Below are positions 27,241 through 53,042 of a stretch of DNA of 56,031 nucleotides, piece by piece (the first letter of the stretch is position 1; each line of letters begins with the position of its first letter). The notes under the pieces were generated by a model. It did no database searches and was not told the DNA's origin. It saw nothing but the letters and a program-made list of their open reading frames with translations. The position numbers and the translations under genes were made by a program. This stretch comes from Bacteroidota bacterium (GTDB taxonomy: Bacteria; Bacteroidota; Bacteroidia; Flavobacteriales; Schleiferiaceae): the NCBI GenBank assembly GCA_003045865.1, contig PZPB01000011.1, positions 1-56,031 on the forward strand, read 5' to 3'.

Positions 27241-29469
27241 CTACTCAATTACTATTTTCTCGCTGTGGCTGCTAGAGCCGTTGCTTACATTAATTAGATA
27301 GATACCTTTTGGTAAAGACTGTACATCAATATGATGTAAGCTGTTGTTACCATTAAGGCTTAATACTTCTGCGTGCATTACTTTGCCCGCAAGGTTAATA
27401 ATGCTTAAAGTAGCTTGAGGTGAATCTAAGCTAAGACGTACATCAAAAGAACCGTTAGTAGGGTTAGGGCTAAAGCTAAAAGCGTTTAAGCCTGTATTTT
27501 CAGTCAAACCTATCGTGCCTGCGCCGAACATTACATCATCGATGTAGAATGTTTTTGGTCCACCTTGAGTAGCGCCATCCGTTCCGAAGTTAGGGAATAC
27601 AGATACTACATCATAGGTTTTAGTTAAATCTAAGGCTGGAGTATTCGCAGCATTGTTGGTGAAATCAAAAGTTAAAGTTTCCCAGGCGCCTGCCATAGTA
27701 GTAGTAGCAATAGTTTCTACCGAAATAGCGCCGTCATTGTTGTCTTCTACTTTTAAAAGTACATCAACACCTGCGTCTGGAGACCAAACACGCACAGTCA
27801 TTGTTGTTTCAGTAGCGGTAAAAGGCACTGGATTAGCTAAACCTCCGAAAGATACAGTTACACCAGCCCAAGTTTGAGCATTACCTTCTTTCGTAATTTG
27901 CATTACGGTATTTGCCGCATTGGTTGGGTCAGCTAAAATAGTATCCGAAGCACCACCGAAAGCTGCACTTGCATAATTTACTGTGCTATCTTCCCAAGTG
28001 ATAGGTAAGTCAACTTGACTTAAAACAGGACCCGTTCCACCACCAGTACCGAACACAAAATCGTCTGCGTAATAAGTTTTATCACCTGCCGTGTTACCAT
28101 CTGTTCCGAAGTTCGGGAATAAAGAAAGCATATCGTAGGTACTCGCGTAATTGATTACCGCTGTTCCTGGAGCTTCATTTCCTGCGCTAAAATCAAATGT
28201 TAAAGTTTCCCAAGCTCCAGCTTGTGTAGTAGTTGCTAAAGTTTCTACGGTTTTAGTATTATCATTAACGTCTTCTGCTTTAAGCAAGAAAGGAATACCA
28301 GCATCTGGAGACCATACACGAACAGTTATAATATTATCCATAGCGGTAAAAGGAATAGCAGTAGCTAAACCACCAAAAGATACAGTAGTACCAGCCCATG
28401 TTTGTGCGCCTAAAGGCTTGTTAAGAAGCAATACATTATTGGCAGCATTGGTTGGATCAACCACAACGCTATCAGCATTACCACCAAAACTAATAGTAGT
28501 GTAAGCAACAGTAGCATCGTCAAAAGTGATTGGTAAATCTACTTGTGAAAGCATAGTTCCACCAGTACCGAATACCACATCATCAACATAGTAGGTTTTA
28601 TTACCTGCGGTATTTCCATCCGTTCCGAAGTTAGGGAAGACAGAAAGCATATCATAGGTACTAGCATAATTAATTACCGCTGTCCCGGGGGCTTCATTTC
28701 CTGCGCTAAAGTCAAAAGTTAAAGTCTCCCAAGCACCAGCTTGAGTAGTAGTAGCTAAAGTTTCTACCGTTTTAGTATTATCATTAACGTCTTCTGCTTT
28801 AAGCAAGAAAGAGATACCAGAGTCTGGAGACCAAACACGAACAGTGATAATATTATCAGTAGAAGAAAAAGGAATCGCAGTAGCCAAACCACCAGCAGAT
28901 ACAGTAGTACCAGCCCAAGTTTGTGCACCAAGAGGCTTGTTAAGAACTAGAACGTTATTTGCTGCATTAGTAGGATCTGGAGCAATGCTATCTACATTAC
29001 CACCAAAACTTATCGTGGTGTAAGCTACAGTTGGATCATCAAAGGTAATTGGCAAAGCCACTTGAGTTCCCGTTCCGCCGCCTGTTCCGCAGGTAGCACA
29101 TTGTTCCCAGCAAACTACACCTAAAGTAGTATCACCACTGAAGGTAAGAATACGATTGGTGAAGCCAGAAGTAGTAATGGTGCAAGGAGATCCAGAAGTT
29201 AAGTTTTCCTGAGCCGTCCAGCCATCTAAAGTAAATTTGTATTCAATAGTACCAGCGGTTAAAGGAAGAGATACCTCCCAAATGCCGTCACTATTTGCGT
29301 CCGTCATTGGATTACAAGCGCCACACCACGAATTAAATGTCCCATTAACATTAGCTGTGGTGAAACTTCCAGTATAGTTGTTCAAATCAACCTGGAAGGT
29401 TACAGTGTCCGTTTGAGCCTGCAAAAAGCCAAAAGACACCATTAAAAAGAGTAGAGTAAATTTTCTCAT
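27241..29469 (-). CDS. T9SS-secreted protein with three glucan-binding-like modules
   Basis: A 742-residue protein. Signal peptide 1-18 (LLFLMVSFGFLQAQ). Residues 20-130 form a CBM20/48-like sandwich (VTFQVDLNNYTGSFTTANVN, DSDGIWE-type loop DANSDGIWEVSLPL). Three copies of a module of about 160 residues follow (about 138-300, 313-470, 487-645), each running from LPITFDD or LPITWED through AQTWAG, TVRVWSPD, WETLTFDF and FPNFGTDG to YYVDDVVFG-type ends. A T9SS type A sorting domain ends the protein (FSFSPNPTNGSFDVRLS). No catalytic domain is visible. Copies 1 and 2 are almost identical. The C-terminal module of the PKD lipoprotein at 47048-48415 is homologous, so a beta-glucan-binding role is inferred. 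Confidence 0.85.
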   Translation of the reverse strand: MRKFTLLFLMVSFGFLQAQTDTVTFQVDLNNYTGSFTTANVNGTFNSWCGACNPMTDANSDGIWEVSLPLTAGTIEYKFTLDGWTAQENLTSGSPCTITTSGFTNRILTFSGDTTLGVVCWEQCATCGTGGGTGTQVALPITFDDPTVAYTTISFGGNVDSIAPDPTNAANNVLVLNKPLGAQTWAGTTVSAGGLATAIPFSSTDNIITVRVWSPDSGISFLLKAEDVNDNTKTVETLATTTQAGAWETLTFDFSAGNEAPGTAVINYASTYDMLSVFPNFGTDGNTAGNKTYYVDDVVFGTGGTMLSQVDLPITFDDATVAYTTISFGGNADSVVVDPTNAANNVLLLNKPLGAQTWAGTTVSFGGLATAIPFTAMDNIITVRVWSPDAGIPFLLKAEDVNDNTKTVETLATTTQAGAWETLTFDFSAGNEAPGTAVINYASTYDMLSLFPNFGTDGNTAGDKTYYADDFVFGTGGGTGPVLSQVDLPITWEDSTVNYASAAFGGASDTILADPTNAANTVMQITKEGNAQTWAGVTVSFGGLANPVPFTATETTMTVRVWSPDAGVDVLLKVEDNNDGAISVETIATTTMAGAWETLTFDFTNNAANTPALDLTKTYDVVSVFPNFGTDGATQGGPKTFYIDDVMFGAGTIGLTENTGLNAFSFSPNPTNGSFDVRLSLDSPQATLSIINLAGKVMHAEVLSLNGNNSLHHIDVQSLPKGIYLINVSNGSSSHSEKIVIE

Positions 29470-29497: not shown

Positions 29498-29590
29498 TAG
29501 ACTTTTATTCAAAAAAACTATAAGTGAATATAGAAAATATTTTATTACTTGTTAATCAGACATTTAAATAAAGTTGTCGGCGGATTTAAA

Positions 29591-29656: not shown

Positions 29657-30406
29657 ATGAGCGAAAAAGAATTTCCTCTCCATATACCTAGTAAATATCA
29701 CGTTTCTTATTATCAAATACCCATAGAAAGATTCTTTCAATTTGGCTTTTCGGTAGACTGCGTGGTATTTGGGTGTTTAGATAACACTTTAAAAGTGATG
29801 TTAGTGGAAAGAGGTGTTCAGCCTTATAAAGGCCAATGGGCTTTACCGGGTGACTTAGTTTATCCAAACGAAGAGATCTCAACCGCGGCCGAAAGAGTAC
29901 TAAGAGACCTGACTGGGATTCAAGACATCCCGACTATGGAGCAAACCAAAACTTACGGAAAGGTTGACCGCCACCCAGTAGGCCGAGTATTAACCGTTGG
30001 GCATTACGCCCTAGTTAACCCCGATATATACAATCCTCACGCCTCTTCTTGGGCCGATAATATTCACTGGGTAGATATTGAGGAATTACCCGGACTGGCC
30101 TTTGACCATCAAGAAATTATTGAGGACGCCTTAGAAGCATTGCGCACTGATGCACGTAAAAAGCCCATAGGTTTCGACCTTTTGCCGGAAAAATTTACCC
30201 TGAACGACTTGCAGATTATTTACGAAAGCATTTTCAGTACAAAATTAGATAAAGGAAACTTCAGAAAACGCATGCTAAATATGGGCTTACTAAAAGCCTT
30301 GGAAGAAACCCAAGCTAATGTAGCGCACCGTCCCGCTCGGCTATACTGCTTCGATACAAAATCATACGAAAACCTAAAATCCAAAGATTTCTCCTTCGAG
30401 ATATAA
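29657..30406 (+). CDS. NUDIX-type transcriptional regulator (NrtR/AraR-like)
   Basis: A 249-residue protein. The Nudix-fold domain (about 28-150) includes VDCVVFGCLDNTLKVMLVER, GQWALPGDLVYPNEEISTAA and ERVLRDLTGIQD. The catalytic REUxEExGU core is degraded to RVLRDLTGI, so hydrolase activity is unlikely. The C-terminal winged-helix part is LNDLQIIYESIFSTKLDKGN followed by FRKRMLNMGLLKALEET. This is the architecture of NrtR-like regulators, which in Bacteroidota often control sugar catabolism and sense a sugar or nucleotide-like ligand. It is first in the eight-gene PUL operon and is preceded by a palindrome, so it is probably the PUL regulator. Confidence 0.9.
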   Translation: MSEKEFPLHIPSKYHVSYYQIPIERFFQFGFSVDCVVFGCLDNTLKVMLVERGVQPYKGQWALPGDLVYPNEEISTAAERVLRDLTGIQDIPTMEQTKTYGKVDRHPVGRVLTVGHYALVNPDIYNPHASSWADNIHWVDIEELPGLAFDHQEIIEDALEALRTDARKKPIGFDLLPEKFTLNDLQIIYESIFSTKLDKGNFRKRMLNMGLLKALEETQANVAHRPARLYCFDTKSYENLKSKDFSFEI

Positions 30407-30429: not shown

Positions 30430-32064
30430 ATGAACCACCAACAACTCAACTTTTTAGATCACGCAGTCTTAATTGGCTATTTTGCCTTGATCTTAGTGGT
30501 TTCGTTGTACTTAATTTTCAAAGAGAAAAAGACGAGCACCGCCAATGCTTCTTCCGATTACTTTTTAGGAGGCAAAAATCTTTCTTGGTTTGTAATTGGC
30601 GCTTCTCTTTTTGCTTCCAATATTGGCTCTGAGCATCTTGTAGGCCTTGCAGGCGCTGGCGCCGCTGGCGATTTTCCCGCCGCCCAATTTGAAATCCTTG
30701 CTGCCTTTATGCTTTTACTTTTAGGCTGGCTTTTTGTTCCACTTTATTTAAGAAGCGGAGTTTTCACCATGCCGCAGTTTTTAGAAAGACGCTATGGCCC
30801 GTGGGCAAGAAACTACCTTACTTGGGTTTCGATATTAGGATATGTAATCACTAAAATTGCTTTAACCATTACCGCTGGTGGAATCATCTTTACCACTTTG
30901 ATGGGTATAGATTTTTGGACTGGTGCCATCATAGTGGTAGTTGCTACTGGTGTTTACACCATTTTCGGAGGATTAAAAGTGGTGGTTTACACGGATATGA
31001 TTCAGATGTTTATCCTTCTTGGAGGTAGCATTGCCCTTAGCTTTTATGGCCTAGAAGCGCTAGGCGGCTGGAGCGAAATAGAAAGGTTAAGCGCACCAAG
31101 TTATTCTAGCCTGTGGCGGCCTTTAAGCGACCCCGACTTCCCCTGGACTGGTATTCTCTTTGGCGCGCCCATTCTTGGCGTTTGGTATTGGTGTACCGAT
31201 CAATTTATTGTGCAACGCGTTTTGGCGGCCCGTAATATCGATCAAGCCCGCAAAGGGACCATCTTTGCCGCTTACTTAAAAATGCTTCCACTCTTTATTT
31301 TTGTGGTTCCTGGGCTTATCGCCTATGCTCTATCCGTAAAAGAGGGAGCAAACTTTAGCTTTCCTCAAGAAAATGGCGAAGTTTTATACGATGCCGCCTT
31401 ACCCATGCTAACCATGCAACTTTTACCCGCAGGTTTAAGAGGTTTAGTAGTAGCCGGCTTAATCGCCGCTTTAATGAGTTCCCTCAGTTCTGTTTTTAAT
31501 TCCTGCTCTACCCTATTTACCATAGATGTTTATCAAAGACTGAAACCAGAAACTAGCGAAAAGCAATTGGTAAAAGTGGGTCGTATTGCTACCGGAATCT
31601 TAGTAATTTTAGGCTTGGCCTGGATTCCTCTCCTCGATTTATTAGAAGGTGGGCTCTTTCAAAAACTACAAAGCATCCAATCTTACATTTCACCTCCCAT
31701 TGCTTCGGTATTTTTACTGGGCGTTTTCTCTAAACGCATCACCGCCAAGGGAGCCAAATACGCGCTACTTAGTGGTGCCGTTCTTGGAGCCACTCGTCTT
31801 ATTTTAGAATTAAACAAAACCAACTTACCTGCGAGCTTAAGTTGGTATGTAGATATCAACTTCCTGCATTTCGCACTTCTACTTTTCCTAATATGTACCC
31901 TTGTATTAGTACTGGTAAGTATCAGCGAAAGCGCACCAAATTTTGAAAAAATTAAGTCATTATTATATAGTAAAAGTAACTCCGAGCCCAAGCAAGGCAT
32001 CAACATACTTTTAAGCGTGGTCCTTGTTTTACTTATCGGCGTTCTTTGGATAGTGTTTAGTTAA
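30430..32064 (+). CDS. Sodium:solute symporter (SSS/SGLT-like)
   Basis: A 544-residue polytopic inner-membrane protein with about 13-14 helices. SSS hallmarks are SSDYFLGGKNLSWFVIGASL, FASNIGSEHLVGLAGAGAAG, PLYLRSGVFTMPQFLERRYG, GGLKVVVYTDMIQMFILLGG and LIAALMSSLSSVFNSCSTLF. The SGLT-like GSEH and DQFIVQRVLAARN segments suggest a sugar substrate. It follows the regulator by 23 bp and precedes the MFS gene by 27 bp. Likely import of glucose or a short product of glucan breakdown driven by Na+; exact substrate unknown. Confidence 0.9.
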   Translation: MNHQQLNFLDHAVLIGYFALILVVSLYLIFKEKKTSTANASSDYFLGGKNLSWFVIGASLFASNIGSEHLVGLAGAGAAGDFPAAQFEILAAFMLLLLGWLFVPLYLRSGVFTMPQFLERRYGPWARNYLTWVSILGYVITKIALTITAGGIIFTTLMGIDFWTGAIIVVVATGVYTIFGGLKVVVYTDMIQMFILLGGSIALSFYGLEALGGWSEIERLSAPSYSSLWRPLSDPDFPWTGILFGAPILGVWYWCTDQFIVQRVLAARNIDQARKGTIFAAYLKMLPLFIFVVPGLIAYALSVKEGANFSFPQENGEVLYDAALPMLTMQLLPAGLRGLVVAGLIAALMSSLSSVFNSCSTLFTIDVYQRLKPETSEKQLVKVGRIATGILVILGLAWIPLLDLLEGGLFQKLQSIQSYISPPIASVFLLGVFSKRITAKGAKYALLSGAVLGATRLILELNKTNLPASLSWYVDINFLHFALLLFLICTLVLVLVSISESAPNFEKIKSLLYSKSNSEPKQGINILLSVVLVLLIGVLWIVFS

Positions 32065-32091
32065 AACTGCCTAGCGGCAGAACCAATTTTT

Positions 32092-33657
32092 ATGAAAACA
32101 AATAACAATCTAGTCTCCATAATTGCGCTGATAGTTGCGCTAGGAGGACTTTTAATGGGTTTTGATGCATCCGTTATTTCTGGTGTAGTTAAATTTATCG
32201 AACCCGAGTTTAATCTCAACAAGCTAGAACTGGGTTGGTCGGTCGCTTCGCTTACCCTCACGGCTACACTAGCCATGATGATTGCGGGGCCCATAAGTGA
32301 TAAATTAGGTCGCAGAACCGTATTGCGTTATGCCGCGGCCCTTTATGCTGTTTCCGCAGTTCTTTCGGCTATTGCTCCAAGCTTTGTATTTTTAGTAATT
32401 GCCCGTATGATTGGTGGTTTTGGCGTGGGTGCATCCTTAATTTTAGCGCCGATGTACATTGCGGAAATCGCCCCAAAAGAATTACGCGGACGATTAGTTT
32501 CCTTCAATCAGCTTAACATTGTTATCGGTATTTCTCTCGCTTTCTTCACCAATTACCTTATTCTACAATTGGGTAAAAGCGATGCGAGTTGGGCTTTAAA
32601 CTTAAAGTTAGATGAGTATAATTGGCGCTGGATGCTCGGATTAGAAACCCTTCCGGCCATCTTATATTTCTTCGGACTCTTTTTTGTGCCGCAAAGTCCA
32701 CGTTGGTTAATTATGCACGGCCGCTTTGAAGAAGCCGAAATAATTATGGCCAAAGTAGTAGGCGCCGATGCTGCTAAAATTGAGATCAATCGTATCCAAA
32801 AAAGTATCGAACTGGAAGAAAACAAGGAGGAAGCGAAAATTAAAGACTTATTCCGTCCTGGTCTGCGCCTCGTATTAACCATCGGTATTGTAGTCGCTGT
32901 TTTGCAACAAATTACCGGTATCAACTCGGTATTTTTCTATGCGCCAATGATTTTCGAACAAAGTGGCCTGGGAACTGATGCCTCCTTTATGCAAGCCATT
33001 TTAGTAGGCTTGGTAAACCTCGCTTTTACCGTATTAGCCATTTTATTTATCGACCGCCTTGGTCGTAAACCCCTTTTAAGTTTTGGCGTTGCCGGTATCG
33101 CACTTTCGATGTTTACCTTATCCTATGCCTTTAAAACGGCCGAGTTTTCTGTAAGCCCTGAACTTATCAGCAACTTTGCCGAAAAATTCGATAGCTCTAC
33201 CTTACAAAGTTTAGAGGCAACGGTTTTTACGAGCGAAAATGATTTCACCGCCGCTCTCGCAACCAAAATTGAAGCCGCTACCTTAGAAGAACATCAGGCG
33301 GATATTGTAAAGGGATCGATTCAAATGAACACCACCCTAACTTTATTCTCCATTCTTGCATTTGTGGCCAGTTTTGCGATTTCCATCGGGCCAGTTATGT
33401 GGGTACTCTTTTCTGAGCTTTTCCCCAATAAAATTAGAGGTATTGCCATTTCCTTCGTGGGTTTAATTAACTCCGCCGTCAGCTTTGTAGTGCAATGGAT
33501 TTTCCCTTGGGAATTGGATGTACTAGGCAATTCTTTAACCTTTTTAATTTATGGCCTTTTCGCCGCCTTCGGACTAATCTTTATTATTAAAGTTATCCCC
33601 GAAACCAAAGGTAAATCGCTGGAAGAAATTGAAAAACAACTTGTTACCAAAGACTAA
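32092..33657 (+). CDS. Sugar porter family MFS transporter
   Basis: A 521-residue, 12-helix protein with sugar-porter signatures: GFDASVISGVVKFIEPEFNL, DKLGRRTVLRYAA, PMYIAEIAPKELRGRLVSFN, VPQSPRWLIMHGRFEEAE, DRLGRKPLL and the C-terminal PETKGKSLEEIE. A non-hydrophobic insertion of about 65 residues (FSVSPELISNFAEKFDSSTL onward) lies between two late helices, in a loop. Closest by pattern to XylE/GLUT-type proton-sugar symporters. It is the second transporter in the operon and is followed after 2 bp by GH16. Confidence 0.92.
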   Translation: MKTNNNLVSIIALIVALGGLLMGFDASVISGVVKFIEPEFNLNKLELGWSVASLTLTATLAMMIAGPISDKLGRRTVLRYAAALYAVSAVLSAIAPSFVFLVIARMIGGFGVGASLILAPMYIAEIAPKELRGRLVSFNQLNIVIGISLAFFTNYLILQLGKSDASWALNLKLDEYNWRWMLGLETLPAILYFFGLFFVPQSPRWLIMHGRFEEAEIIMAKVVGADAAKIEINRIQKSIELEENKEEAKIKDLFRPGLRLVLTIGIVVAVLQQITGINSVFFYAPMIFEQSGLGTDASFMQAILVGLVNLAFTVLAILFIDRLGRKPLLSFGVAGIALSMFTLSYAFKTAEFSVSPELISNFAEKFDSSTLQSLEATVFTSENDFTAALATKIEAATLEEHQADIVKGSIQMNTTLTLFSILAFVASFAISIGPVMWVLFSELFPNKIRGIAISFVGLINSAVSFVVQWIFPWELDVLGNSLTFLIYGLFAAFGLIFIIKVIPETKGKSLEEIEKQLVTKD

Positions 33658-33659: not shown

Positions 33660-34898
33660 ATGAGAAAATTTTCAAGCCTAATTGTCTTAGCAAGCATCGT
33701 TGCCTGCTCTAACAGCAATGCCACAGAGAACGCATCTACCGAAAGGGAAAGCCCTAAAAACACGGTAATTGTAGCCGCTAATAGTTTTGTAAATAGCAGT
33801 TTACCGAACCTAAATAAGGATAGCCTTAGCATGCCTGCTAATTCGTGGTTAGAATATGAAGTGAATATTGCCGAAGCCGGTCGCTACCGCCTAACTATAA
33901 ATGGACAAGCCGATACAAATGCCCGAGTTTGGATGGAAGATTACGTTAAAAATACCGACGGCCGTAGCTATAATATTAGTGGCGACCTCGCTTTCGCAGA
34001 TGGGCAAGCTTACGTGATTGGTTCTCCGCTAGATAGTGGCATGCACCCCATGCGTTTACATTTTAAAACGGGTACAACAAAAGTCGAAAGCATTGAATTC
34101 AAACTAATTAAGCGTCACGCCTCCACGCCTAAAAGCAGTACCCAAAAGATGGACGGCGATGAATGGCAACTCGTATGGAGTGATGAATTTGAGGGCGAAG
34201 GCTTACCCGATTCCACCAAGTGGAGCTACAATATTGGCAACTGGGGTTGGGGAAATAATGAGCCGCAATTTTACACCGATGCCAAGCTTAAAAATGCCCG
34301 TCAAGAAAACGGCAAGCTTATTATTGAAGCACATAAAAACGACGCGGGCTCTCCTTGGACTTCAGCGCGTTTAAGCACGCAAGGCAAAGAATCTTTTTTA
34401 TATGGTAAAATTGAATTTAGAGCGAAAGTTCCAGTAGGCCGCGGCACCTGGTCGGCAGGCTGGTTACTGGGCGATGAATATCGCGATGAAATCTCTTGGC
34501 CTTACTGTGGTGAAATTGATGTTTTAGAATGCGTAGGCTACGAAATAAACGACAGCACTGGCGACGGTATTAACCATGCCACTTGCCACACACGCGCCTA
34601 TTACTTTAAACAAGGCAATCAGATTGGCAACGAAATAGAAGTGCCAAACATGGACGGCGAATTTCATACCTATGCGGTAGAATGGTATCCTGATGTTATT
34701 TACGGATTGGTAGATGGCGAGCGCTATTTCACCTACGATAAAAATGCAAATGAACTTGAATGGCCCTTTTTCAAGCCACAGAATATTATCCTCAACCTGG
34801 CCGTTGGCGGAGGTTGGGGTGGTGCTAAAGGCATCGATCCACAATGGGAAAGCCACCAATACATTTTAGATTACGTGCGGGTTTATGAATTACACTAG
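33660..34898 (+). CDS. GH16 endo-beta-1,3-glucanase (laminarinase), lipoprotein
   Basis: A 412-residue protein. Signal peptide with possible lipobox (LIVLASIVAC, Cys16). Residues 35-150 form a CBM6/35-like sandwich (WLEYEVNIAEAGRYRLTING, GMHPMRLHFKTGTTKVESI). The GH16 domain (about 160-412) runs from WQLVWSDEFEGEGLPDSTKW to the catalytic stretch GEIDVLEC (nucleophile Glu285, Asp287, acid/base Glu290) and ends YILDYVRVYEL. The catalytic pattern without the beta-bulge Met is that of bacterial beta-1,3- or mixed-linkage glucanases. The next gene overlaps its end by 14 bp. Confidence 0.92.
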   Translation: MRKFSSLIVLASIVACSNSNATENASTERESPKNTVIVAANSFVNSSLPNLNKDSLSMPANSWLEYEVNIAEAGRYRLTINGQADTNARVWMEDYVKNTDGRSYNISGDLAFADGQAYVIGSPLDSGMHPMRLHFKTGTTKVESIEFKLIKRHASTPKSSTQKMDGDEWQLVWSDEFEGEGLPDSTKWSYNIGNWGWGNNEPQFYTDAKLKNARQENGKLIIEAHKNDAGSPWTSARLSTQGKESFLYGKIEFRAKVPVGRGTWSAGWLLGDEYRDEISWPYCGEIDVLECVGYEINDSTGDGINHATCHTRAYYFKQGNQIGNEIEVPNMDGEFHTYAVEWYPDVIYGLVDGERYFTYDKNANELEWPFFKPQNIILNLAVGGGWGGAKGIDPQWESHQYILDYVRVYELH

Positions 34899-36399
34899 AC
34901 TTACTAAATACTTCAAAATCTCTCTTGGGCTGGCTTTCCCTTTTTTAATTTTTGGCTGCCAAAACCCGGAGCAAATTGCCGATCAGCTTAGGGTAGAAAT
35001 CTATAACAGTTCTGCCGCGGGAGCAAAAATGGCCCAAGGTGAGCCCTTTGATTCAATTACAGAGTTTGGCATCGAAATCTTCCCTGAGCAGACTTTCCAA
35101 ACCATTGAAGGTTTTGGCGGCGCTTTTACCGAAGCGAGCAGCCACTTGCTCCAAAAAATGAGTGCCAATAAACGCAAGGAAGTTCTCGAAGCCTATTTCT
35201 CTAGCGATGCCGCCGCTTACAGCTTATGCCGCACGCACATCAACTCCTGCGATTTCTCTTTAAGTTCTTACGCTTACGCAGATGTGCCAGGAGATACCTT
35301 ATTGGAATCCTTTAGCATTGCGGTAGATCGCGATGATATTATTCCCACCATTAAGGAAGCACAAGCCATTTCTAAAAACGGCTTTAAAATTTTTGCTTCT
35401 CCTTGGACTGCTCCCACTTGGATGAAGGATAATCAAGCCTATTTCGGTGGAAAACTACTCCCCCAATATCGCTCGGTTTGGGCCAAGTATTTTTCTAAAT
35501 ATGCACAGGCTTACGCCGCAGAAGGCATTCCCATTTGGGGTTTCACAGTAGAGAACGAACCCTTAGGCAACGATGCTAACTGGGAAAGCATGCACTTTAC
35601 GCCTGAAGAAACTGCGGATTTTGTAACGAATTATCTCGGCCCGCAATTAGAGGCGGATAGCCTAGACATTAAAATTCTCGTTTACGATCAAAACCGCGGG
35701 GAAGAATTAGAGGAATGGGCCGATGTGCTTTTGCAAGATTCGCTTGCTTCACCGTATATCGCAGGTACCGCTGTTCATTGGTATACTAGTACTTACGATT
35801 GGTTTCCAAAATCACTACAACATACCCACGCCCTAGCGCCCAATAAAATGATTATCCAAACGGAAGCCTGTGTAGATGCCGAAATCCCTCATTGGCGAGA
35901 AGATGATTGGTACTGGCGCAAAGAAGCTACCGACTGGGGCTACGACTGGGCCAAGCCCGAAGATAAATACCTGCACACACCTTATGTTCCTGCTTACCGC
36001 TATGCCCGCGATATAATCGGCTGCTTAAATAATTGGGTGGCCGGTTGGGTCGATTGGAATATGGTCCTCGACAAACAAGGTGGCCCCAATCATGCAAAAA
36101 ACTGGTGTGTAGCGCCGGTATTAGTCGATACTATTAGCGATGAGGTATACTTCACACCGCTCTATTATATTCTCCGTCAGTTTAGTCAATTCATCCAGCC
36201 CCAAGCGAAACGCATTGGCTTTAGCTGTTCCGATGAAGCGCTATTACTTACTGCTGTGCAAAATCCTGATGAGAGTATTGTTGTGTATTTATTCAACACC
36301 GACGAACGTGCGAAAAGCTTTACCCTAAAAATTGGTGAGCGGGAAATCAAAACTTTAGTGCCCGCACAAGCACTGCAAAACCTAGTACTAAAACCCTAA
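34885..36399 (+). CDS. GH30 family glucanase/glucosidase
   Basis: A 504-residue protein with a signal peptide ending in GCQ (Cys25 lipobox). The GH30 (beta/alpha)8 barrel shows TFQTIEGFGGAFTEASSHLL at the start, acid/base Glu225 in GFTVENEPLG, nucleophile Glu327 in IIQTEACVDA, and a C-terminal beta-sandwich (VVYLFNTDERAKSFTL). In laminarin PULs the GH30 usually removes beta-1,6-linked glucose branches. That role is inferred here because GH16, GH17 and GH81 enzymes lie in the same operon. The subfamily cannot be set by eye. Confidence 0.9.
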   Translation: MNYTRLTKYFKISLGLAFPFLIFGCQNPEQIADQLRVEIYNSSAAGAKMAQGEPFDSITEFGIEIFPEQTFQTIEGFGGAFTEASSHLLQKMSANKRKEVLEAYFSSDAAAYSLCRTHINSCDFSLSSYAYADVPGDTLLESFSIAVDRDDIIPTIKEAQAISKNGFKIFASPWTAPTWMKDNQAYFGGKLLPQYRSVWAKYFSKYAQAYAAEGIPIWGFTVENEPLGNDANWESMHFTPEETADFVTNYLGPQLEADSLDIKILVYDQNRGEELEEWADVLLQDSLASPYIAGTAVHWYTSTYDWFPKSLQHTHALAPNKMIIQTEACVDAEIPHWREDDWYWRKEATDWGYDWAKPEDKYLHTPYVPAYRYARDIIGCLNNWVAGWVDWNMVLDKQGGPNHAKNWCVAPVLVDTISDEVYFTPLYYILRQFSQFIQPQAKRIGFSCSDEALLLTAVQNPDESIVVYLFNTDERAKSFTLKIGEREIKTLVPAQALQNLVLKP

Positions 36400-36409: not shown

Positions 36410-39400
36410 ATGTCTTCTAAAGCAGAAACAACTTTCCTTGGCTCCAACCCTATTCAACAAGCTCCCACTGAGGTAGATGGGGGATTTGTAGAAATTTCGG
36501 GTGAAAGTTATTACAAGATTTCTAACTACCACGCGATGGACCCCTTCTTTATGACCGTGGTGAGCCCCAGCGATCAGTGGCTTTTTATTGGCAGTAATGG
36601 CGGACTAACCGCGGGTAGAAAAAATGCGGAATCGGCTTTATTCCCCTATTATACCGACGATAAAATAATCGACAATGCGGAAAACACTGGTTCAAAAACC
36701 TTAATTAAAGTAAAGCGCGACGGACAAACCCAACTGTGGGAGGCCTTTTCGTTGCGCTCGGAAGGTTTATATCAGATACGCAGAAATATTTACAAAAACA
36801 GCCTCGGCAATAAGCTGCGCTTCGAAGAAATTAATGAAAGCCTCGGTCTAAGTTTTAGCTATGAATGGTCTTTCAGCAATCGCTACGGCTTTATTAAAAA
36901 AAGCTGGCTTAAAAATTTAAGTTCTGATGCGGCCGAAATCGCCATTCTCGATGGTTTGCAAAATATTTTACCCTCGGGGGTAAATAGCGCTTTGCAAAGT
37001 GGTAGAAGCACTTTGGTAGATGCCTACAAGAAAAACGAAAAGGTAGCTGATTCCACTTTGGCCATTTTTAGCCTAAGTGCTCGTATTGTTGACAAAGCCG
37101 AACCTGCCGAAGCTTTAAGGGCCAATACAATTTGGTCTAGCGGCCTTGCGGCAGATGCGATTTTACTATCGAATTTGCAATTGGATAAATTCCGTCGTGG
37201 CACTACCATTGAAAACGAAAGCTTTATCAAGGCTACTAAAGGTGCTTATTTTATTCATAGCCAGTTTAGCATGCCTGCTAATGAAGAGAAGCATTGGCTT
37301 TGTGTGGCAGAACTCAATATGTCTAGCGCCCAAGTTGCGCAACTAAGAGAAGAGCTTAAAAACGAAAGTGCCCTAGTCGCCAATTTAGAAGCAGAAATTG
37401 CTGCCGATTCTCTCAAGCTAAAAAAACTAGTAGGCTTAGCCGATGGCTTACAAAGCAGCAAAGACAAACTAATTAGCACTCGTCATTACAGCAATGTTTT
37501 GTTTAATATTATGCGTGGTGGTATTTTCGAAGGCCTTTACCTGCTTAGTAAAAACGACCTATTAAAGTACTTCAATATTGTAAACCATAAGCTAAGTATT
37601 GCCTATGCTTCCTTTTTCGATAGCCTAGATGAGCAGCTTAGTTATAGCAGTTTAGTTGCGAAGGCCAAAGAAACAGGCAACAGCGATTTAACCCGCATTT
37701 GCCGCGAATATTTACCGCTATCTTTCAGTCGCCGCCATGGAGACCCGAGCCGCCCTTGGAATTATTTCAGCATCGAAAACCTCGACCAAGACGGCAATCG
37801 CATTATCAACTACGAAGGAAACTGGCGCGATATTTTTCAAAACTGGGAAGCGCTTAGCTATTCCTTCCCCCTTTATATCGAAGGCATCATTGCCAAATTT
37901 GTGAACGCATCTACGCTGGACGGTTATAACCCTTATCGCATTTCTAAAAACGGTATCGATTGGGAAGTAATTGAAGAGCACGACCCATGGTCATTTATTG
38001 GCTATTGGGGCGATCATCAGATTATTTATCTGCAAAAGCTCCTCGAACATTCGGCCGCACATTACCCTAACAAACTGCAGGAAATGCTGTCGGAAGAATC
38101 CTTCGTTTACGCCAATGTTCCTTACCGTATAAAATCCTATTCAGAAATAGTACGAGATTCTAGCGACACTATTGATTTCGATCACGATTTAGAAAAAACA
38201 ATCCAAGGCCGCGTAGAGGCGGTGGGTAGCGATGGTCGCTTGGCTTGGGATGAATCTCAAAATATAATTAAAGCGAATTTGGCGGAGAAAATCCTCCTAA
38301 CCGCTTTAACTAAACTCTATAACTTTATTCCCGAAACTGGCATTTGGCTTAATACCCAAAGACCGGAATGGAATGACGCCAACAATGCCCTTGTAGGCGA
38401 TGGCGTAAGCATGGTTACGCTTTACTATTTACGTCGCTTTATTGCCTTCAACAGCAAGCTCTTTAGTAAGTCTAGCCAAAGTACTTTTGCTTTACATAGC
38501 CCGCTTTACAATTTAACCGCTAACGTTTTAAAGACTTTCCAAGAGCATAAAGATTCCCTTGGTAAACCATTTAGTGCGCAAGAACGTCGCGCTGTTTGCG
38601 ACAGTCTCGGTTATGCGGGCGATCGCTATCGCGCTCTTGCCTATTCTGGTTTAGGGGGCGAAAAACAAGAAATTGATAAGCAAGATATTCTCAATTTATT
38701 TGATTTGGCCTTAACCTATATCGATGATGCCATTACTAAAAACCGTCGCACCGATGGTCTTTATCATGCCTATAATTTAATTGACTTTAGCGAAAATAGC
38801 GTAGAGGTTTCCAATCTCTACGAAATGTTAGAAGGGCAAGTGGCGGCTTTAAGCACCGATAATTTAAAGGCAGAAGAAGCCCTGCGTGTACTGGACAAAT
38901 TAAAGCAAAGTGCAATGTACCGTGCCGATCAATATAGCTATATGCTATACCCAGATCGAACCTTAGCGCCTTTTATCGATAAAAATAATATCCCTGCTAG
39001 TTTTGTAGAAGCTTCTGCTTTAATCAAGGCCATGCACGCCCAGGGCAATCAAAGCATTGTAGAAATTGGAGGATCGGGATCCTATCATTTTAATGGCGAC
39101 CTGAGCAATGCCAAAGATTTAGAAGCACGTATAAACCAGCTAGCCCAGTCTCCTTGGGCAGAACTTGCTCAAGCAGAAGCTAATTCTTTGTTGGAGCTTT
39201 TTGAAGAGATCTTTAATCACCGCGCTTTTACAGGCCGATCGGGAACCTTTTACGGTTACGAGGGCCTAGGCAGTATTTACTGGCACATGGTTTCTAAACT
39301 TCTCTTAGCCGTGCAAGAGAATATTTTTAAAGGTAAAGCCGAGCAGGCTGATCCTAAAGTTATGGGGGCCTTAATCGATCATTACTACGAGATTAGAGCG

Positions 39401-39862
39401 GGAATTGGGGCTAATAAAAACCCGAAATTGTACGGCGCCTTCCCCACCGACGCTTACTCGCATACTCCTTCTAATGCTGGGGTTCAGCAGCCTGGCATGA
39501 CCGGACAGGTAAAAGAAGACGTGTTAAATCGCTGGGCGGAATTAGGACTAAAAGTGCAGAATGGACAATTAGACATTGCACCTTTCTTTATGCATCCCGA
39601 CGAGTTTAATAGTACCGCAAGCACCTTTGACTATGTAGATGCTTTGGGTGAATTTCAAAGTATTGCGCTAAAAGAAGGTCAAATGGCTTTCAGCTATTGT
39701 GGTGTACCTATTATTTACCAATCTGGCGCAAGCTACCAGCTTACTATTTTCTATGCCAATGGCGAGCAAGAATCAAGTACAGAAGCTAGTTTAAGCCTGG
39801 AATTAAGCCAAGGTATATTTAGCCGCAGTGGCCAAATAAATCGTATTGAATTAAGCTTTTAA
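36410..39862 (+). CDS. GH149-like beta-1,3-oligoglucan phosphorylase (cytoplasmic)
   Basis: A 1150-residue protein with no signal peptide. N-terminal sandwich (NYHAMDPFFMTVVSPSDQWL, FIGSNGGLTAGRKNAESALF), a helical linker, then an (alpha/alpha)6 domain with RPEWNDANNALVGDGVSMVT; Asp656 corresponds to the general acid of GH94-type phosphorylases. Later come GSGSYHFNGDLSNAKDLEAR and QPGMTGQVKEDVLNRWAELG. Size, domain order and PUL context fit GH149 better than the shorter GH94 cellobiose phosphorylases. It would split beta-1,3-glucan oligomers with phosphate to glucose-1-phosphate, saving ATP. The family number is inferred; GH161 or a new GH94-related family is possible. Confidence 0.8.
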   Translation: MSSKAETTFLGSNPIQQAPTEVDGGFVEISGESYYKISNYHAMDPFFMTVVSPSDQWLFIGSNGGLTAGRKNAESALFPYYTDDKIIDNAENTGSKTLIKVKRDGQTQLWEAFSLRSEGLYQIRRNIYKNSLGNKLRFEEINESLGLSFSYEWSFSNRYGFIKKSWLKNLSSDAAEIAILDGLQNILPSGVNSALQSGRSTLVDAYKKNEKVADSTLAIFSLSARIVDKAEPAEALRANTIWSSGLAADAILLSNLQLDKFRRGTTIENESFIKATKGAYFIHSQFSMPANEEKHWLCVAELNMSSAQVAQLREELKNESALVANLEAEIAADSLKLKKLVGLADGLQSSKDKLISTRHYSNVLFNIMRGGIFEGLYLLSKNDLLKYFNIVNHKLSIAYASFFDSLDEQLSYSSLVAKAKETGNSDLTRICREYLPLSFSRRHGDPSRPWNYFSIENLDQDGNRIINYEGNWRDIFQNWEALSYSFPLYIEGIIAKFVNASTLDGYNPYRISKNGIDWEVIEEHDPWSFIGYWGDHQIIYLQKLLEHSAAHYPNKLQEMLSEESFVYANVPYRIKSYSEIVRDSSDTIDFDHDLEKTIQGRVEAVGSDGRLAWDESQNIIKANLAEKILLTALTKLYNFIPETGIWLNTQRPEWNDANNALVGDGVSMVTLYYLRRFIAFNSKLFSKSSQSTFALHSPLYNLTANVLKTFQEHKDSLGKPFSAQERRAVCDSLGYAGDRYRALAYSGLGGEKQEIDKQDILNLFDLALTYIDDAITKNRRTDGLYHAYNLIDFSENSVEVSNLYEMLEGQVAALSTDNLKAEEALRVLDKLKQSAMYRADQYSYMLYPDRTLAPFIDKNNIPASFVEASALIKAMHAQGNQSIVEIGGSGSYHFNGDLSNAKDLEARINQLAQSPWAELAQAEANSLLELFEEIFNHRAFTGRSGTFYGYEGLGSIYWHMVSKLLLAVQENIFKGKAEQADPKVMGALIDHYYEIRAGIGANKNPKLYGAFPTDAYSHTPSNAGVQQPGMTGQVKEDVLNRWAELGLKVQNGQLDIAPFFMHPDEFNSTASTFDYVDALGEFQSIALKEGQMAFSYCGVPIIYQSGASYQLTIFYANGEQESSTEASLSLELSQGIFSRSGQINRIELSF

Positions 39863-39896
39863 TTTCACTGAAAGGCTCTTAAAATAACTATTGCTT

Positions 39897-42800
39897 ATGT
39901 CTAAAATTTATCAGCGCTTAACGCAGATTTTCATCTTGACCTTATTGGTCCAATTATCAGCGGTAGCGCAGGTGGTAAACGTGGGCAGTGGTAGCTATAC
40001 CACTACTTTTCCAGGTACCGATGCCGCCGGTAGAAATGGTTATCCCTCGGGGACACCCTTTGTGGTGGGCAACGCCGCTAACCGTCCCGTACCCACCAAC
40101 GACTGGTGGTCGGATAAAGTTAAAAATGCGCATTCTAGCAACCTGTTTAACTATCCCTTTACGGAGAAAACCCTCAACAGTGGTTTGGTTTTAACCTACA
40201 TTCCTTGGGGACCAATTGATAATATCGAACCCGTAAAAGTAGGCTTGAACGGTCTTAATGCCAGTGCGGCAAATATTTCCGATTTCAGCGATTGGACTAT
40301 TACCATGCAGTGGAAAAATGGCACGAAACAAATGGAAGCCACCACGGGTATAGGAATGCCTTTTGTTTACTTTACCAAAGATTCGGCGAGCACGGTAGAA
40401 ATTACCGCCGATCAAGGAACAGCCACCATTCATAATGAGATTCTTATTATAGAAAATTTACGTAACGGTGCCGACTTCGCGGTTTATGCTCCAAGTGGTA
40501 GTGTTTGGACCCAAAGTGGCAATGTTTACAGCTCTAGCTTAAACGGCGAAAATTACTGGTCTTTGGCCTTCTTGCCTTTGAGCTCCAGCAATCTATTAAC
40601 CGCGGCCACCAGCTTTCAACAGTACGCTTATGTTTTCCCTACGGGTACCACCAGTTCTTACTCTTACGATGAAACCACTAGTGAAGTAACCACGGTTTTT
40701 AATGTTCAAACTAGCGTTAAGGAAGGTACATCCAGCAATATGCTACTCGGGCTTTTACCGCATCAGTGGGCTAATTTAGGCAGCGGAAGCGTAAATACTT
40801 CCCACGTTTACAATACCGTAAGAGGGCAGTTAAAAATGATGGCGGGCAATACTTTTAGCACAGTGAATACCTTTTACGGCATTCTTCCTACCCTGCCTTA
40901 TATCGACTTTTACAGTCCTACTTTCAGTCCCGCTAAGATGAATACCAAGATTAAGCTTTTGGAAAACGAAGGACTGGCCACTTGGACCGATTCGTACAAT
41001 GAAGGTCAAGCCATGAATCGTTTAATTCAAACAGCTCGGGTGGCTGAAATTAGCGGTGATACCGTAGCTTTAAATAAAATAGTAAGCACCATTAAAGGTC
41101 GTTTAGAAGATTGGTTAAAAGCCAATAGTGGTGAGGTAGCTTTCTTATTTTATTACAATCAAACTTGGTCGGCTATGCTAGGCTATCCTGCTGGTCACGG
41201 CCAAGATGTGAATATTAATGATCACCATTTCCACTGGGGCTATTTCATCCATGCGGCCGCCTTTTTAGAGCAGTATGATGCGGGTTGGAAAAACCAGTGG
41301 GGCGATATGATTAATCTTTTAGTGCGTGATGCCGCGAGCAGCAATCGCCAAGATAACCTCTTCCCTTACTTACGAAATTTTAGTCCTTATGCCGGGCATT
41401 GCTGGGCTAATGGCTTTGCTACTTTCCCGCAAGGAAACGACCAAGAGTCGACTTCGGAAAGTATGCAGTTTAACTCCTCACTTATTCACTGGGGAGAAGT
41501 TACGGGCAACGATTCCATACGCGATTTAGGTATTTACCTCTATACCACCGAGCAAGCAGCGGTGGAAGAATATTGGTTTGATATGTACAACCGCAATTTC
41601 GCCAGTAGTCAACAATACTCCTTAGTATCGAGAGTATGGGGAAACAGCTATGACAACGGCACCTTTTGGACGGCAGACATCGCCGCTTCTTACGGTATTG
41701 AGATGTACCCTATTCACGGTGGATCACTTTACTTAGGACACAATGTTTCCTATGTAGATCAGCTTTGGGCAGAAATTGAGCAGAACACTGGTATCTTAAC
41801 CAATGACCCCAATGTGAATTTATGGCATGATGTAAAGTGGAAATACCTCTCCTTTACCGATCCGCAAAAAGCCATAACTATGTACGATTCTTATCCCGAA
41901 AGAAACTTGAAGTTCGGGATTTCAGATGCACAAACCTATCACTGGTTGCACAGTATGAATGTTTTAGGCGAGGTTAGCACAGCTATTACTTCTAACCACC
42001 CCTTAGCAGCCGCCTTTAATAATAATGGAACCATTATTTATGTTGCCCAAAATTATGGCAACGATAGTATTGTGGTAAACTTCTCCGATGGTTTTAACTT
42101 AGATGTGCCCGGACATAAACTAGTAACTAGCATTGATGTAGATGTAGACGGCGTATTAAGCACAAGCTTTACCCGTGCTTATCCAGGCGGATCTGTAGAT
42201 CTGGACGTTGTAACTTCGGGAATGGGCATTGTTTCTAAGGTAGAGTTTTACCAAGAAGATGTGCTTATTGGCACCAGCAATAGCGCTCCTTATAGAGTTA
42301 CCGCCGACAGTTTGCAAGTTGGGGTGCATAATTTCTATGCTCGTGTTTACGAGGGAAATACCAATTATGCTCTTACCAATTTAGTAAGCGTACAAGTAGG
42401 AGAGCAATATGCTTATTCTGGCATTCCAACTCCAATTCCAGGATCATTTGAAGCAGGACATTACGATGTTTTTGAAGGCGGTAATGGCAATGGTATCGCA
42501 TACCAAGACCTCAGCGCCAATAATAACGGCGACTTCCGTCCTTTAGAAGACGTAGACGCTGAACTAAACCAAAGCGAAGGTGCCGTGGTAGGATGGATTT
42601 CGGCCGGTGAATGGTTAGAATACACCGTAGACGTGCAAACCGCCGGTGAATATAAATTAGAAATGCGCTATGCCTGCGGTAATTCAGCCGGTGGCGGTCC
42701 TTTGCGCATAGAATCAGACGGCGATCTTGTTTTTAGTGGTATTGGCGTAAACAACACCAATGGTTGGAACACTTGGGCTACCAAAACCGTGACCGGCATT

Positions 42801-44015
42801 CCTCTTAAAAGTGGCGAGCAAGTAATGCGCATTCATTTTGAAAGCGGTGAAGTAAACGTAGGTAAGTTCACTTGGACCTACGAAGGCCCGCTTAGTTATG
42901 TTCAAGCTGTCGCTGATGCGGGAGCAAATCAAATTCTATTGCTACCCCAAAGCACCGCTACTTTAGACGGTAGTGCCAGTTCTAGCCCATCAGGCGGAAG
43001 CCTAAATTACCAATGGACCCAAATTTTTGGCCCCAGCATCGTAAACCTGGCGAGTGCCCAATCTGCGACAAGCGCAATAAGTGGTTTGCAAGAAGGCGTT
43101 TACCTTTTTGAATTAGAGGTTACCAATGGCAGCAGTAGAGATATTGACCAAGTTTATGTAATTTCTAGCAATAGCAGCAATGTGCCACCTACCGTTTCCT
43201 TAATCAGTCCTTTAAACGGCAGTGTTTACCTTACGGGAGAAGTGTTAGACTTCAATAGTATTGCTAATGACCTGAACGATAGCGTGCTAAGAGTTGATTT
43301 CTACCTCGATGGTATTCTGCTAGGTAGCGATAATCAAGCGCCCTTTACTATGGCGTGGAATGCCGCTCAAGGGCAGAAGACTTTAGAAGCAGTGGCTTTC
43401 GATAGCTTTGGCGATTCAGCCACTTCGAATGTGGTAAACTTTACGGTAGACCCCGCGCCACCTTGCCGTAATTTATCGTCAAATGGCGATTTCTATTACG
43501 AGTTTTCCGATGATGATAATAATCCTACCATCACCTTTATCCCGACCATTGCGGGTATGGGCAGTCCGACCTGTATTTTATACATCGGCACCGACCCGGG
43601 CGCTTTGCCTGGTTATAATGTAACACCTAATCAGCCTTTTAGAATAACGGCTAGCAAGGGCACGCGTTTGTATTTCTACTATACTTACACCCATCCTAAT
43701 GGCGGTGAAAGAAATAATGCCGGCAGTAAAGATGTATATTTAGTGGGCAGCTGTCAGAATATAAGTTTAGAAGAGCAATTAGCTTTAAATGAAATTCAGT
43801 ATTACCCCAATCCGGTAAGTGATTTCCTTAACCTTGAGTTAGGCGAAGGCCAACAAGAAGTATCCATTTTTAACGTGAATGGGCAACTATTGCAAAATCT
43901 TAGCTTAGATGGAGGGTTTAATATAATTGATATGCGTTCTTTCCAAGCGGGTTTTTATATGTTAAGAATTCAACAAGGAGCAGAGGTAAGAAACCTGCGT
44001 TTGATTGTGGAATAA
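39897..44015 (+). CDS. GH81 endo-beta-1,3-glucanase with CBMs and T9SS domain
   Basis: About 1372 residues from ATG 39897 (an in-frame TTG at 39891 is less likely). Signal peptide to about 25. The GH81 domain (about 40-735) includes RPVPTNDWWSDKVKNAHSSN and the catalytic GNDQESTSESMQFN (Glu517/Glu521), plus NINDHHFHWGYFIHAAAFL. Then an Ig-like domain (about 740-830), a CBM6-like domain (GWISAGEWLEYTVDVQTAGE), a PKD-like domain (YVQAVADAGANQILLLPQST), an Ig-like domain and a module of about 95 residues (DFYYEFSDDDNNPTITFIP) that may be CBM56-like. A T9SS type A domain ends it (YYPNPVSDFLNLEL). It should be secreted and act on long beta-1,3-glucan chains. Confidence 0.92.
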   Translation: MSKIYQRLTQIFILTLLVQLSAVAQVVNVGSGSYTTTFPGTDAAGRNGYPSGTPFVVGNAANRPVPTNDWWSDKVKNAHSSNLFNYPFTEKTLNSGLVLTYIPWGPIDNIEPVKVGLNGLNASAANISDFSDWTITMQWKNGTKQMEATTGIGMPFVYFTKDSASTVEITADQGTATIHNEILIIENLRNGADFAVYAPSGSVWTQSGNVYSSSLNGENYWSLAFLPLSSSNLLTAATSFQQYAYVFPTGTTSSYSYDETTSEVTTVFNVQTSVKEGTSSNMLLGLLPHQWANLGSGSVNTSHVYNTVRGQLKMMAGNTFSTVNTFYGILPTLPYIDFYSPTFSPAKMNTKIKLLENEGLATWTDSYNEGQAMNRLIQTARVAEISGDTVALNKIVSTIKGRLEDWLKANSGEVAFLFYYNQTWSAMLGYPAGHGQDVNINDHHFHWGYFIHAAAFLEQYDAGWKNQWGDMINLLVRDAASSNRQDNLFPYLRNFSPYAGHCWANGFATFPQGNDQESTSESMQFNSSLIHWGEVTGNDSIRDLGIYLYTTEQAAVEEYWFDMYNRNFASSQQYSLVSRVWGNSYDNGTFWTADIAASYGIEMYPIHGGSLYLGHNVSYVDQLWAEIEQNTGILTNDPNVNLWHDVKWKYLSFTDPQKAITMYDSYPERNLKFGISDAQTYHWLHSMNVLGEVSTAITSNHPLAAAFNNNGTIIYVAQNYGNDSIVVNFSDGFNLDVPGHKLVTSIDVDVDGVLSTSFTRAYPGGSVDLDVVTSGMGIVSKVEFYQEDVLIGTSNSAPYRVTADSLQVGVHNFYARVYEGNTNYALTNLVSVQVGEQYAYSGIPTPIPGSFEAGHYDVFEGGNGNGIAYQDLSANNNGDFRPLEDVDAELNQSEGAVVGWISAGEWLEYTVDVQTAGEYKLEMRYACGNSAGGGPLRIESDGDLVFSGIGVNNTNGWNTWATKTVTGIPLKSGEQVMRIHFESGEVNVGKFTWTYEGPLSYVQAVADAGANQILLLPQSTATLDGSASSSPSGGSLNYQWTQIFGPSIVNLASAQSATSAISGLQEGVYLFELEVTNGSSRDIDQVYVISSNSSNVPPTVSLISPLNGSVYLTGEVLDFNSIANDLNDSVLRVDFYLDGILLGSDNQAPFTMAWNAAQGQKTLEAVAFDSFGDSATSNVVNFTVDPAPPCRNLSSNGDFYYEFSDDDNNPTITFIPTIAGMGSPTCILYIGTDPGALPGYNVTPNQPFRITASKGTRLYFYYTYTHPNGGERNNAGSKDVYLVGSCQNISLEEQLALNEIQYYPNPVSDFLNLELGEGQQEVSIFNVNGQLLQNLSLDGGFNIIDMRSFQAGFYMLRIQQGAEVRNLRLIVE

Positions 44016-49924: not shown

Positions 49925-49928
49925 GATC

Positions 49929-52900: not shown

Positions 52901-53042
52901 TTACACCCGGGATGGGCAGGCCATTTGCCGCTTCTTTTACTACTCCCGTAATGGCAACAGACTGCGCCTGCATCCAAATTGGAAGGAATAGCAAAACAAT
53001 GGCTGCAAACCCCTTAAAACGCCTTAGGTAATAATTTTTCAT
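49929..53042 (-). CDS. SusC/RagA family TonB-dependent outer-membrane transporter
   Basis: A 1037-residue protein. Signal peptide 1-27 (AAIVLLFLPIWMQAQ), carboxypeptidase D-like domain 30-105 (ITGVVKEAANGLPIPGVNVL), TonB-box region EIVVVGYGSSTKKEITGA, plug 118-235 (VSGVTINSNSGSPGGSSNIR, DPLILVDGIVYDSEGLNALN) and a large barrel ending PQARTIMGGFNIKF. It takes up oligosaccharides over the outer membrane with TonB/ExbBD energy and the SusD lid. First gene of the minus-strand PUL operon, with a canonical promoter and two inverted repeats upstream. Laminarin as substrate is inferred from the neighbouring enzymes. Confidence 0.96.
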   Translation of the reverse strand: MKNYYLRRFKGFAAIVLLFLPIWMQAQSVAITGVVKEAANGLPIPGVNVLVKGTSVGTTTDMDGNYTIQAKPGDDLVFSFIGFQAATIKVTSSRTINVSLKEESSVLSEIVVVGYGSSTKKEITGATSQVDGVELKKLNLSRVDQALQGQVSGVTINSNSGSPGGSSNIRIRGLSTFGDNDPLILVDGIVYDSEGLNALNPADIESVNVLKDGTAGIYGVRAANGVIIIETKKGKLNTKPQIEFSGFYGMQETTNRLSLLNANEYAIIKNNAFVNAGQTAPFNNTQLGEGTDWQNEIFQVAPMQNYNISINGGTNKTRYSIGGSYYTQDGIVGLDKANFTRYNARFNVSYELSTKFRINSVLLYTNENRRSLPENGIGSVLYNTINAYPTEPVRQTDGRYSYLELVNDIINPVAQMENTYNESAVNKLVGKEELVYTINENFTFTNRFNYNAAIVDGKVFSPLVWYGPGKAQNTAVNADLDAPRVEIADSIFLERGASVYENRDYYVDLNFESFLNYERQINREHKVKGTLGTSVFTRSGSGLNATAFNVPNNSVDFADISANQAEGGFLNNAGSFEFEERLVSAFLRAEYSYLNRYLFSAIVRRDGSSKFGANNRWGIFPAFSGAWVFSDESFFDVSFIDFGKLRMSYGISGNDQIPNFAYRALLNGEGVYVLDDLITSGVAIGRASNPDLKWETTHQFNVGLDLTILKEISFAMNYFVKNTNDLLFQPDVSGLLGTYGPGGFPPFVNAGDVSNRGLELELGYSTDPTKDWVFSTSFNMTQLTNEVLRVPDGVDFIPGAQFGVGGNVATRFEVGQPIGYYIGLQTDGIFQSQQEIDNSSVVQAGARPGDLRYVDQNGDGVISFGDDSDRTKIGSPIPDFTFGLNLTGRYKNFDASCNLYAAVGQEIIRNYERQQPYANQLTYIIDRWTGPGSSEDIPRVTTGATRNNVFSDYFVEDGSFLRIRNLQVGYTLPRKWLTRQKVESMRVYVSVNNLYTLTNYQGFDPDIGNFGGVLAAGVDYGFYPQARTIMGGFNIKF

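Follow-up and report, generated by a model that had tools for sequence, protein, structure and literature searches.

The minus strand of a 56,031-nucleotide stretch of DNA (the window) from a marine bacterium encodes, at positions 27241 to 29469, a protein of 742 amino acids (P0001) that is quite probably a non-catalytic cell-surface protein for laminarin capture. A preliminary description of the same DNA had read it as a secreted, enzyme-free and multivalent beta-glucan-capture device. This reading is supported by the likeness of its repeated modules, in sequence and predicted fold, to a solved laminarin-binding carbohydrate-binding module (CBM; PDB entry 8qx6). Laminarin in particular fits because of the content of the locus, the conserved synteny and a candidate operator common to P0001 and susC.

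P0001 starts with a signal peptide (seen by eye) and a CBM48-like domain (29086 to 29412, minus strand; about amino acids 20 to 128), in which Pfam CBM_48 is matched at amino acids 38 to 86 (E 5.2e-9; 36.7 bits against a cut-off of 22.4). Three tandem modules of about 165 amino acids follow on the same strand: module 1 (28567 to 29061; amino acids 137 to 301), module 2 (28051 to 28542; 310 to 474) and module 3 (27523 to 28014; 486 to 649). The protein ends in a type A sorting tail of the type IX secretion system (T9SS) at 27247 to 27468, minus strand (amino acids 668 to 741; PF18962 E 1.2e-12, TIGR04183 E 1.6e-12; Por_Secre_tail 48.4 bits against a Pfam cut-off of 27). The earlier reading of a CBM20/48-like N-terminus and a T9SS domain is thus borne out by models scoring above their Pfam cut-offs. 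So is that of three modules, as the ORF contains exactly three copies each of the motifs AQTWAG, VRVWSPD, WETLTFDF and FPNFGTDG; judged from the alignments, these four motifs are signatures of the module family. The Pfam and NCBIfam scans gave no enzyme domain above cut-off in P0001, glycoside hydrolases included, in agreement with the catalytic part having been described as absent. With its type A tail, and with SprA encoded in the same genome (SprA_N, 536 bits, the sole T9SS component searched; the genome is a draft, 89.9% complete), P0001 qualifies as T9SS cargo. The lipobox search gave no match in P0001. The gene adjoins a regulator and lies about 19 kb from SusD, and the protein is therefore not of the surface glycan-binding protein (SGBP) lipoprotein type found in SusCD operons.

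The modules were assigned to a family using A1, a nine-row profile built from the window and its own genome and searched against all chain sequences of the PDB. A single entry stands out, 8qx6, with the PDB title 'Novel laminarin-binding CBM X584' (E 6.6e-21 across the whole module; the next match has E 0.5). The P0001 modules are 31-34% identical to it by global alignment and 28-30% by BLASTP. A larger profile of 64 rows, whose 8qx6 score is partly circular because close 8qx6 relatives are among its rows, also matches the CBM of laminarinase 16A (1gui, presumably a CBM4 and part of an enzyme), weakly and with an E of only 7e-4. The preliminary description had left it undecided whether the modules belong with laminarin-binding modules already reported; sequence and fold together now place them with 8qx6. 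Homology and fold therefore support an assignment as CBM102/X584-type modules, CBM102 being the family to which we take 8qx6 to belong. The idea that the module is an orphan of no known family was also considered and is ruled out by the 8qx6 match.

The family is widespread. It is found at E<=1e-3 in 46 of 99 near genomes and, within the order, 133 of 393 sampled genomes have it at E<=1e-10 (own genome counted in both cases). In a search for the source of 8qx6, the best match was at 72%. A fourth, diverged copy had been described at the C-terminus of a PKD lipoprotein of the window (P0002; 47048 to 48415, minus strand). We recover it at 47051 to 47482 (minus strand), 35-38% identical to modules 1 to 3; chance is excluded here by the BLASTP values (E 2e-17 to 1e-15), the score of a three-module profile (42.8 bits) and the prevalence of the family. 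Outside the phylum, the gammaproteobacterium Leucothrix arctica carries the module family in a 1379-amino-acid protein (L148:7310-11449) near homologues of GH16, GH30 and the phosphorylase, a possible case of transfer between phyla.

Two further observations concern the family elsewhere. GH16 enzymes of about 700 amino acids carry a family module inside the GH16 region (L068:3818-5929, L078:8068-10170 and L080:6137-8242). An unassigned domain is reported to interrupt GH16 in Maribacter laminarinases of 687-705 amino acids (PMC11345257); this domain may belong to the same family. A second, different type of tandem module, with a VISIFSDAYTNV-like start, alternates with the P0001-type family in laminarin-type glycan-binding proteins of Flavobacteriaceae (L063, L068 and L079) and matches CBM_11 weakly at most (E 0.0019).

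Structure prediction of a module had been proposed earlier as a check. AlphaFold models of module 1 were obtained from the four modules of the window (pLDDT 76.6) and from 64 rows (pLDDT 95.0, pTM 0.90), and for both of them the first Foldseek match is the laminarin-binding CBM 8qx6 (TM 0.67-0.73). The modelled module thus has the beta-sandwich fold of the solved 8qx6, a general fold common to other CBM families. With the better model, the CBM4 chain 3p6b gives E 3.6e-5 (TM 0.52-0.56) against 3.1e-5 for 8qx6, CBM11 and CBM30 structures give TM values of about 0.5-0.58, and exo-beta-agarase domains reach 0.61-0.66 by query length. Because 3p6b is nearly level and the agarase domains are close, the fold alone does not fix the ligand and, since the lead of 8qx6 is not large, the family assignment rests mainly on sequence. 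These near-equal matches, which include families for other beta-glucans, are what would favour modules made for another beta-glucan (for example, mixed-linkage), for another sugar, or for no ligand at all, as structural spacers. We give this very little probability: the sequence puts the modules with 8qx6, the enzymes of the locus are beta-1,3-glucan types, and the aromatics at P0001 positions 185, 213 and 247 are conserved across the 64 aligned modules (in 64, 62 and 64 of them, respectively), with W at the equivalent positions of all three P0001 copies (either ligand contact or core filling could account for this).

The relation to known CBM102 proteins can be followed in Christiangramia and Gramella. 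Zuhlke et al. (2024, Environ Microbiol 26:e16624) reportedly found that Christiangramia forsetii has a glycan-binding protein with four CBM102 and a GH16 (GH16_3) that carries CBM103. When genomes were scanned with 8qx6 and its relatives, 43 loci came up, of which the nearest are in Gramella sp. AN32 and C. sediminis (81%). C. forsetii is absent from these 43 loci, and three Christiangramia/Gramella relatives were used instead: Gramella sp. AN32, C. sediminis and an uncultured Christiangramia (L119-L121). Each has a lipoprotein of 892-901 amino acids between SusD and GH16, in which A1 detects four modules (68-119 bits apiece); the corresponding protein of Gramella sp. KN1008 (L123) has 711 amino acids and three modules. 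Compared with the four modules of C. sediminis, those of P0001 show 30-37% identity to every one; among the four themselves, identity is 24-31% except for one pair at 59%. The P0001 modules are therefore at least as close to each C. sediminis module as most of those are mutually. In the module tree, used for grouping only because it is unrooted and has some long branches, P0001-type modules form their own clade (support 100/99) with close relatives and one Bacteroidales module. A CBM103 identity was considered separately. A1, used as query in place of a CBM103 sequence, finds no module in the 560-amino-acid GH16 adjoining the C. sediminis glycan-binding protein, which speaks against it.

Modules 1 and 2 of P0001 have 89% protein identity across 173 positions and are sisters in the tree (100/100), and had been regarded as a recent duplication. 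This is not upheld. Their DNA is only 84% identical (420 of 498 bases); of 166 codons, 49 differ synonymously and 16 non-synonymously, and the layout in congeners looks older. There, modules group by position: the module 2 copies of four genomes form one group (97/99), the module 3 copies of five genomes another (100/99), and those of module 1 form two pairs. The three-module layout is therefore probably old in the genus. The exceptions are G003, whose own modules 1 and 2 are independently sisters (100/99), and module 3 of the window, which is unplaced relative to the other module 3 copies; in G005 the P0001 relative carries just two modules. The wider tree joins modules 1 and 2 of P0001 to the module of a giant protein of the same genome (98/94). 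From these sequence comparisons, the triplet is probably old in the genus with modules 1 and 2 homogenised later, which could have occurred by conversion or by loss and re-duplication.

The genes around P0001 point to beta-1,3-glucan. Divergent from P0001 on the plus strand is a NUDIX/NrtR-AraR-type regulator (29657 to 30406; NrtR_WHD E 4.1e-25, AraR_C E 1.8e-16). On the same strand follow two putative sugar transporters (30430 to 33657: ORFs 30430-32064 and 32092-33657, SSS-type and MFS-type by eye), a GH16 (33660 to 34898), a GH30 (34885 to 36399), a beta-1,3-oligosaccharide phosphorylase of the 6hq6 family (36410 to 39862; 1216 bits), which we take to be GH149, a GH81 with CBM6 and a T9SS tail (39891 to 44015) and a GH17 (44027 to 45832; E 8.5e-8). 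The minus strand carries a second GH16 (45847 to 46974), P0002 and, by eye, a SusD-like and a SusC-like protein (48446 to 53042: ORFs 48446-49993 and 49929-53042). The GH16, GH30, GH81 and GH17 enzymes were identified with Pfam. To judge from these matches, the enzyme set between the regulator and SusC is laminarin-type. P0002, defined by Pfam, BLASTP and profiles, has the lipobox and the place beside SusD that characterize a surface glycan-binding lipoprotein. Besides its PKD domain, its residues 14-298 match the solved PKD domain protein 7kv5/7kv6/7kv7 (E 9e-42), a match that P0001 does not have; together with the module, this gives P0002 two different candidate glucan-binding domains.

This arrangement is conserved. 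We counted as close the P0001 relatives of 12 fetched loci in which the match has an identity of 47% or more; three giant proteins were set aside. The loci come from six congeners, three further members of the family (G014, G038 and G015), two members of another family of the order (G072 and G083) and a MAG (locus L150). In 11 of the 12, the P0001 relative is divergent from the same NUDIX/AraR-type regulator. The exception is L150, where it follows SusC, SusD, a PKD protein and GH16 codirectionally and the regulator lies at the opposite end. All six congeners have the same enzymes downstream as far as the fetched stretch extends, and G072, G083 and G015 have a GH16 homologue in line too. In G014 the enzyme adjoining the regulator matches solved GH158 proteins (9oro, E 3e-100), so the glucan theme is kept with other enzymes. 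More diverged P0001 relatives (for example, L058, L060, L145, L147, L151, L158 and a pair on contig C113 of the same genome) are not adjacent to the regulator. In the other family, longer relatives do lie beside it (L057:6034-9813, 1259 amino acids; L062:2145-5051, 968 amino acids); these have one detected module and extra CBM48-like domains, with a lamin-tail domain in L062. No solved relative was found at E<=0.01 for a 572-amino-acid neighbour protein in L054. Among the 43 scanned loci, 32 have a homologue of GH16, GH17, GH30 or the phosphorylase in the fetched stretch and 11 do not (best BLASTP among window ORFs), a count that is biased because the scan query is itself a laminarin-type protein.

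A candidate operator links P0001 to susC. The repeat was first spotted by eye in the intergenic regions of the window and nine relatives and in the susC upstream region. A position weight matrix (PWM) was then derived from the nine relatives alone, using 14 sites (CTTTT[GA]GT plus 15 bases) in their P0001/regulator intergenic regions. In the window, its best score (26.3) falls on a perfect palindrome before susC, CTTTTGGT-N7-ACCAAAAG (53149 to 53171), the second (19.2) between P0001 and the regulator (29502 to 29524) and the third (15.5) again before susC (53235 to 53257). The next place scores 13.2, and the maxima in eight shuffled windows are 7.4-14.2. The perfect palindrome occurs once per genome in all eight genomes searched, each time 93-107 bp before the extrapolated susC start with susC homologues adjacent.

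Counts alone are less telling. When up to 3 mismatches are allowed, the palindrome occurs at one place in the window (with 0 mismatches) against 0.61 expected by chance, which is not significant, and up to 2 mismatches in the eight genomes give 44 forward matches against 31 for a backwards control. A relaxed pattern with at most one mismatch gave 27 distinct places in six genomes (counted by hand): 7 each at susC and at P0001/regulator, 5 at further genes with modules, 3 at phosphoenolpyruvate carboxykinase and 5 elsewhere. Of the last 5, two are outside the fetched sequence and one is just before a second NrtR/AraR-type regulator. The backwards control gave 24 rows against 39 forward, a figure in which palindromic matches count twice. 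Given these controls, weak sites show no clear excess and are poor evidence when taken singly. The sites at susC, P0001 and the C113 pair of the own genome are circular, because the relaxed pattern was drawn after seeing them; those before a T9SS GH16 on contig C90 and at module genes in G003 and G004 are not. The operator claim is therefore one of position, recurrence and conservation, and these suggest that the P0001 gene is probably switched together with the laminarin-uptake genes. As to phosphoenolpyruvate carboxykinase, operator-like sites precede it at L185:4778 (gene by eye) and L186:5120 (Pfam-confirmed), the site in G001 being assigned only via identical site letters. They hint that the regulator may also touch gluconeogenesis.

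The same genome encodes other proteins with these modules. Contig C113 (L010:5622-8634) carries a divergent, enzyme-free pair of 583 amino acids (three modules; T9SS tail by Pfam) and 299 amino acids (one module; tail by eye). The site between them has a PWM score of 16.8, and an AraC-like gene (by eye) is nearby. The C90 gene (L182:4843-6641) encodes a T9SS GH16 whose N-terminus carries a distant module. An operator-like site lies about 150 bp upstream of this gene, and the G003 counterpart (L183) has a site too. The giant protein, on contig C51 (L009:2600-11173), is a T9SS protein of 2857 amino acids in which MAM and fn3 domains come after a CBM48-plus-module head, 67% identical to P0001 over 304 amino acids. 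G003 and G004 have giants with this head as well. By its domain order the 2857-amino-acid protein looks like an adhesin with a glucan-binding head. This raises the question of whether P0001 is itself an adhesin, its modules anchoring the cell to insoluble beta-1,3-glucan or to algal debris rich in laminarin and not feeding soluble laminarin to SusCD. Its T9SS export signal, with SprA in the genome, would suit such a role, as would the operator site 164 bp upstream of the G003 giant. However, the own-genome giant has no operator site in its upstream 500 bp, and P0001 has no long stalk, sits in an uptake locus and has an operator in common with susC. We regard an adhesin as having little probability.

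The CBM48-like domain raises another issue, since such domains usually point to alpha-glucans. P0001 could bind two storage glucans, an alpha-glucan (starch or glycogen) by this domain and laminarin by the modules. Besides the CBM_48 match, AMPK glycogen-binding and branching-enzyme models match the region, below their cut-offs. In addition, contig C63 of the same genome (L011:3935-5605) encodes a 556-amino-acid T9SS protein that has CBM48/X25-like domains, roughly four of them as judged by eye, beside a GH13-like gene (by eye), perhaps an alpha-glucan counterpart of P0001. The rest of the P0001 locus is nevertheless of beta-glucan type, and a CBM48-like domain in a T9SS protein may recognize other sugars or act as a spacer. 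Binding of two glucans is unlikely on balance, and its probability overlaps with that of laminarin capture, because it is compatible with it as an addition.

For laminarin capture itself, we propose the following course. When laminarin is present, the regulator would turn on P0001 jointly with SusCD. The protein would pass through the Sec and type IX systems, lose its tail, and then either stay attached to the outer surface or be released. The three modules in tandem would bind one beta-1,3-glucan chain or neighbouring chains, with the CBM48-like domain as an additional glucan contact, and so raise the local laminarin concentration for surface enzymes and SusCD. A broader scheme for these bacteria, which are probably Schleiferiaceae-like, is possible, if rather doubtful: a parallel layer of T9SS-delivered, enzyme-free laminarin capture beside the SusCD lipoproteins, comprising P0001, the unlinked C113 pair and, in some relatives, the adhesin-sized protein, all under the susC operator and made partly bispecific for alpha- and beta-storage glucans by CBM48-like domains.

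Several known systems resemble parts of this one. The nearest is the 8qx6 CBM X584, which is homologous over the full module, has the same fold and has relatives in the same kind of locus. Modules of the 8qx6 type are, however, carried by PKD proteins beside SusD, whereas those of P0001 are on a T9SS protein with a CBM48-like domain. BuSGBP-B and BfSGBP-B are enzyme-free lipoprotein glucan binders of the SusCD core of beta-1,3-glucan loci; they resemble P0001 as enzyme-free surface glucan binders in such a locus but differ from this T9SS cargo beside a regulator in being core lipoproteins (PMC7157763). CHU_1279 of Cytophaga hutchinsonii, likened here by description alone, is an enzyme-free outer-membrane protein with CBM-like domains, but has two of them and is required for growth on cellulose (PMC12016534). 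The module kind found in P0001 was therefore already known; what is new is that modules of CBM102 type occur on a T9SS protein that lacks an enzyme part and belongs to a predicted laminarin regulon.

Laminarin is an algal storage sugar and a major carbon currency of the ocean, and its known capture in Bacteroidota centres on SusCD and its lipoproteins. The palindrome provides a ready prediction of the laminarin regulon for these bacteria. If our reading is correct, a conserved, apparently co-regulated and enzyme-free T9SS protein composed of laminarin-binding-type modules would represent a separate capture step.
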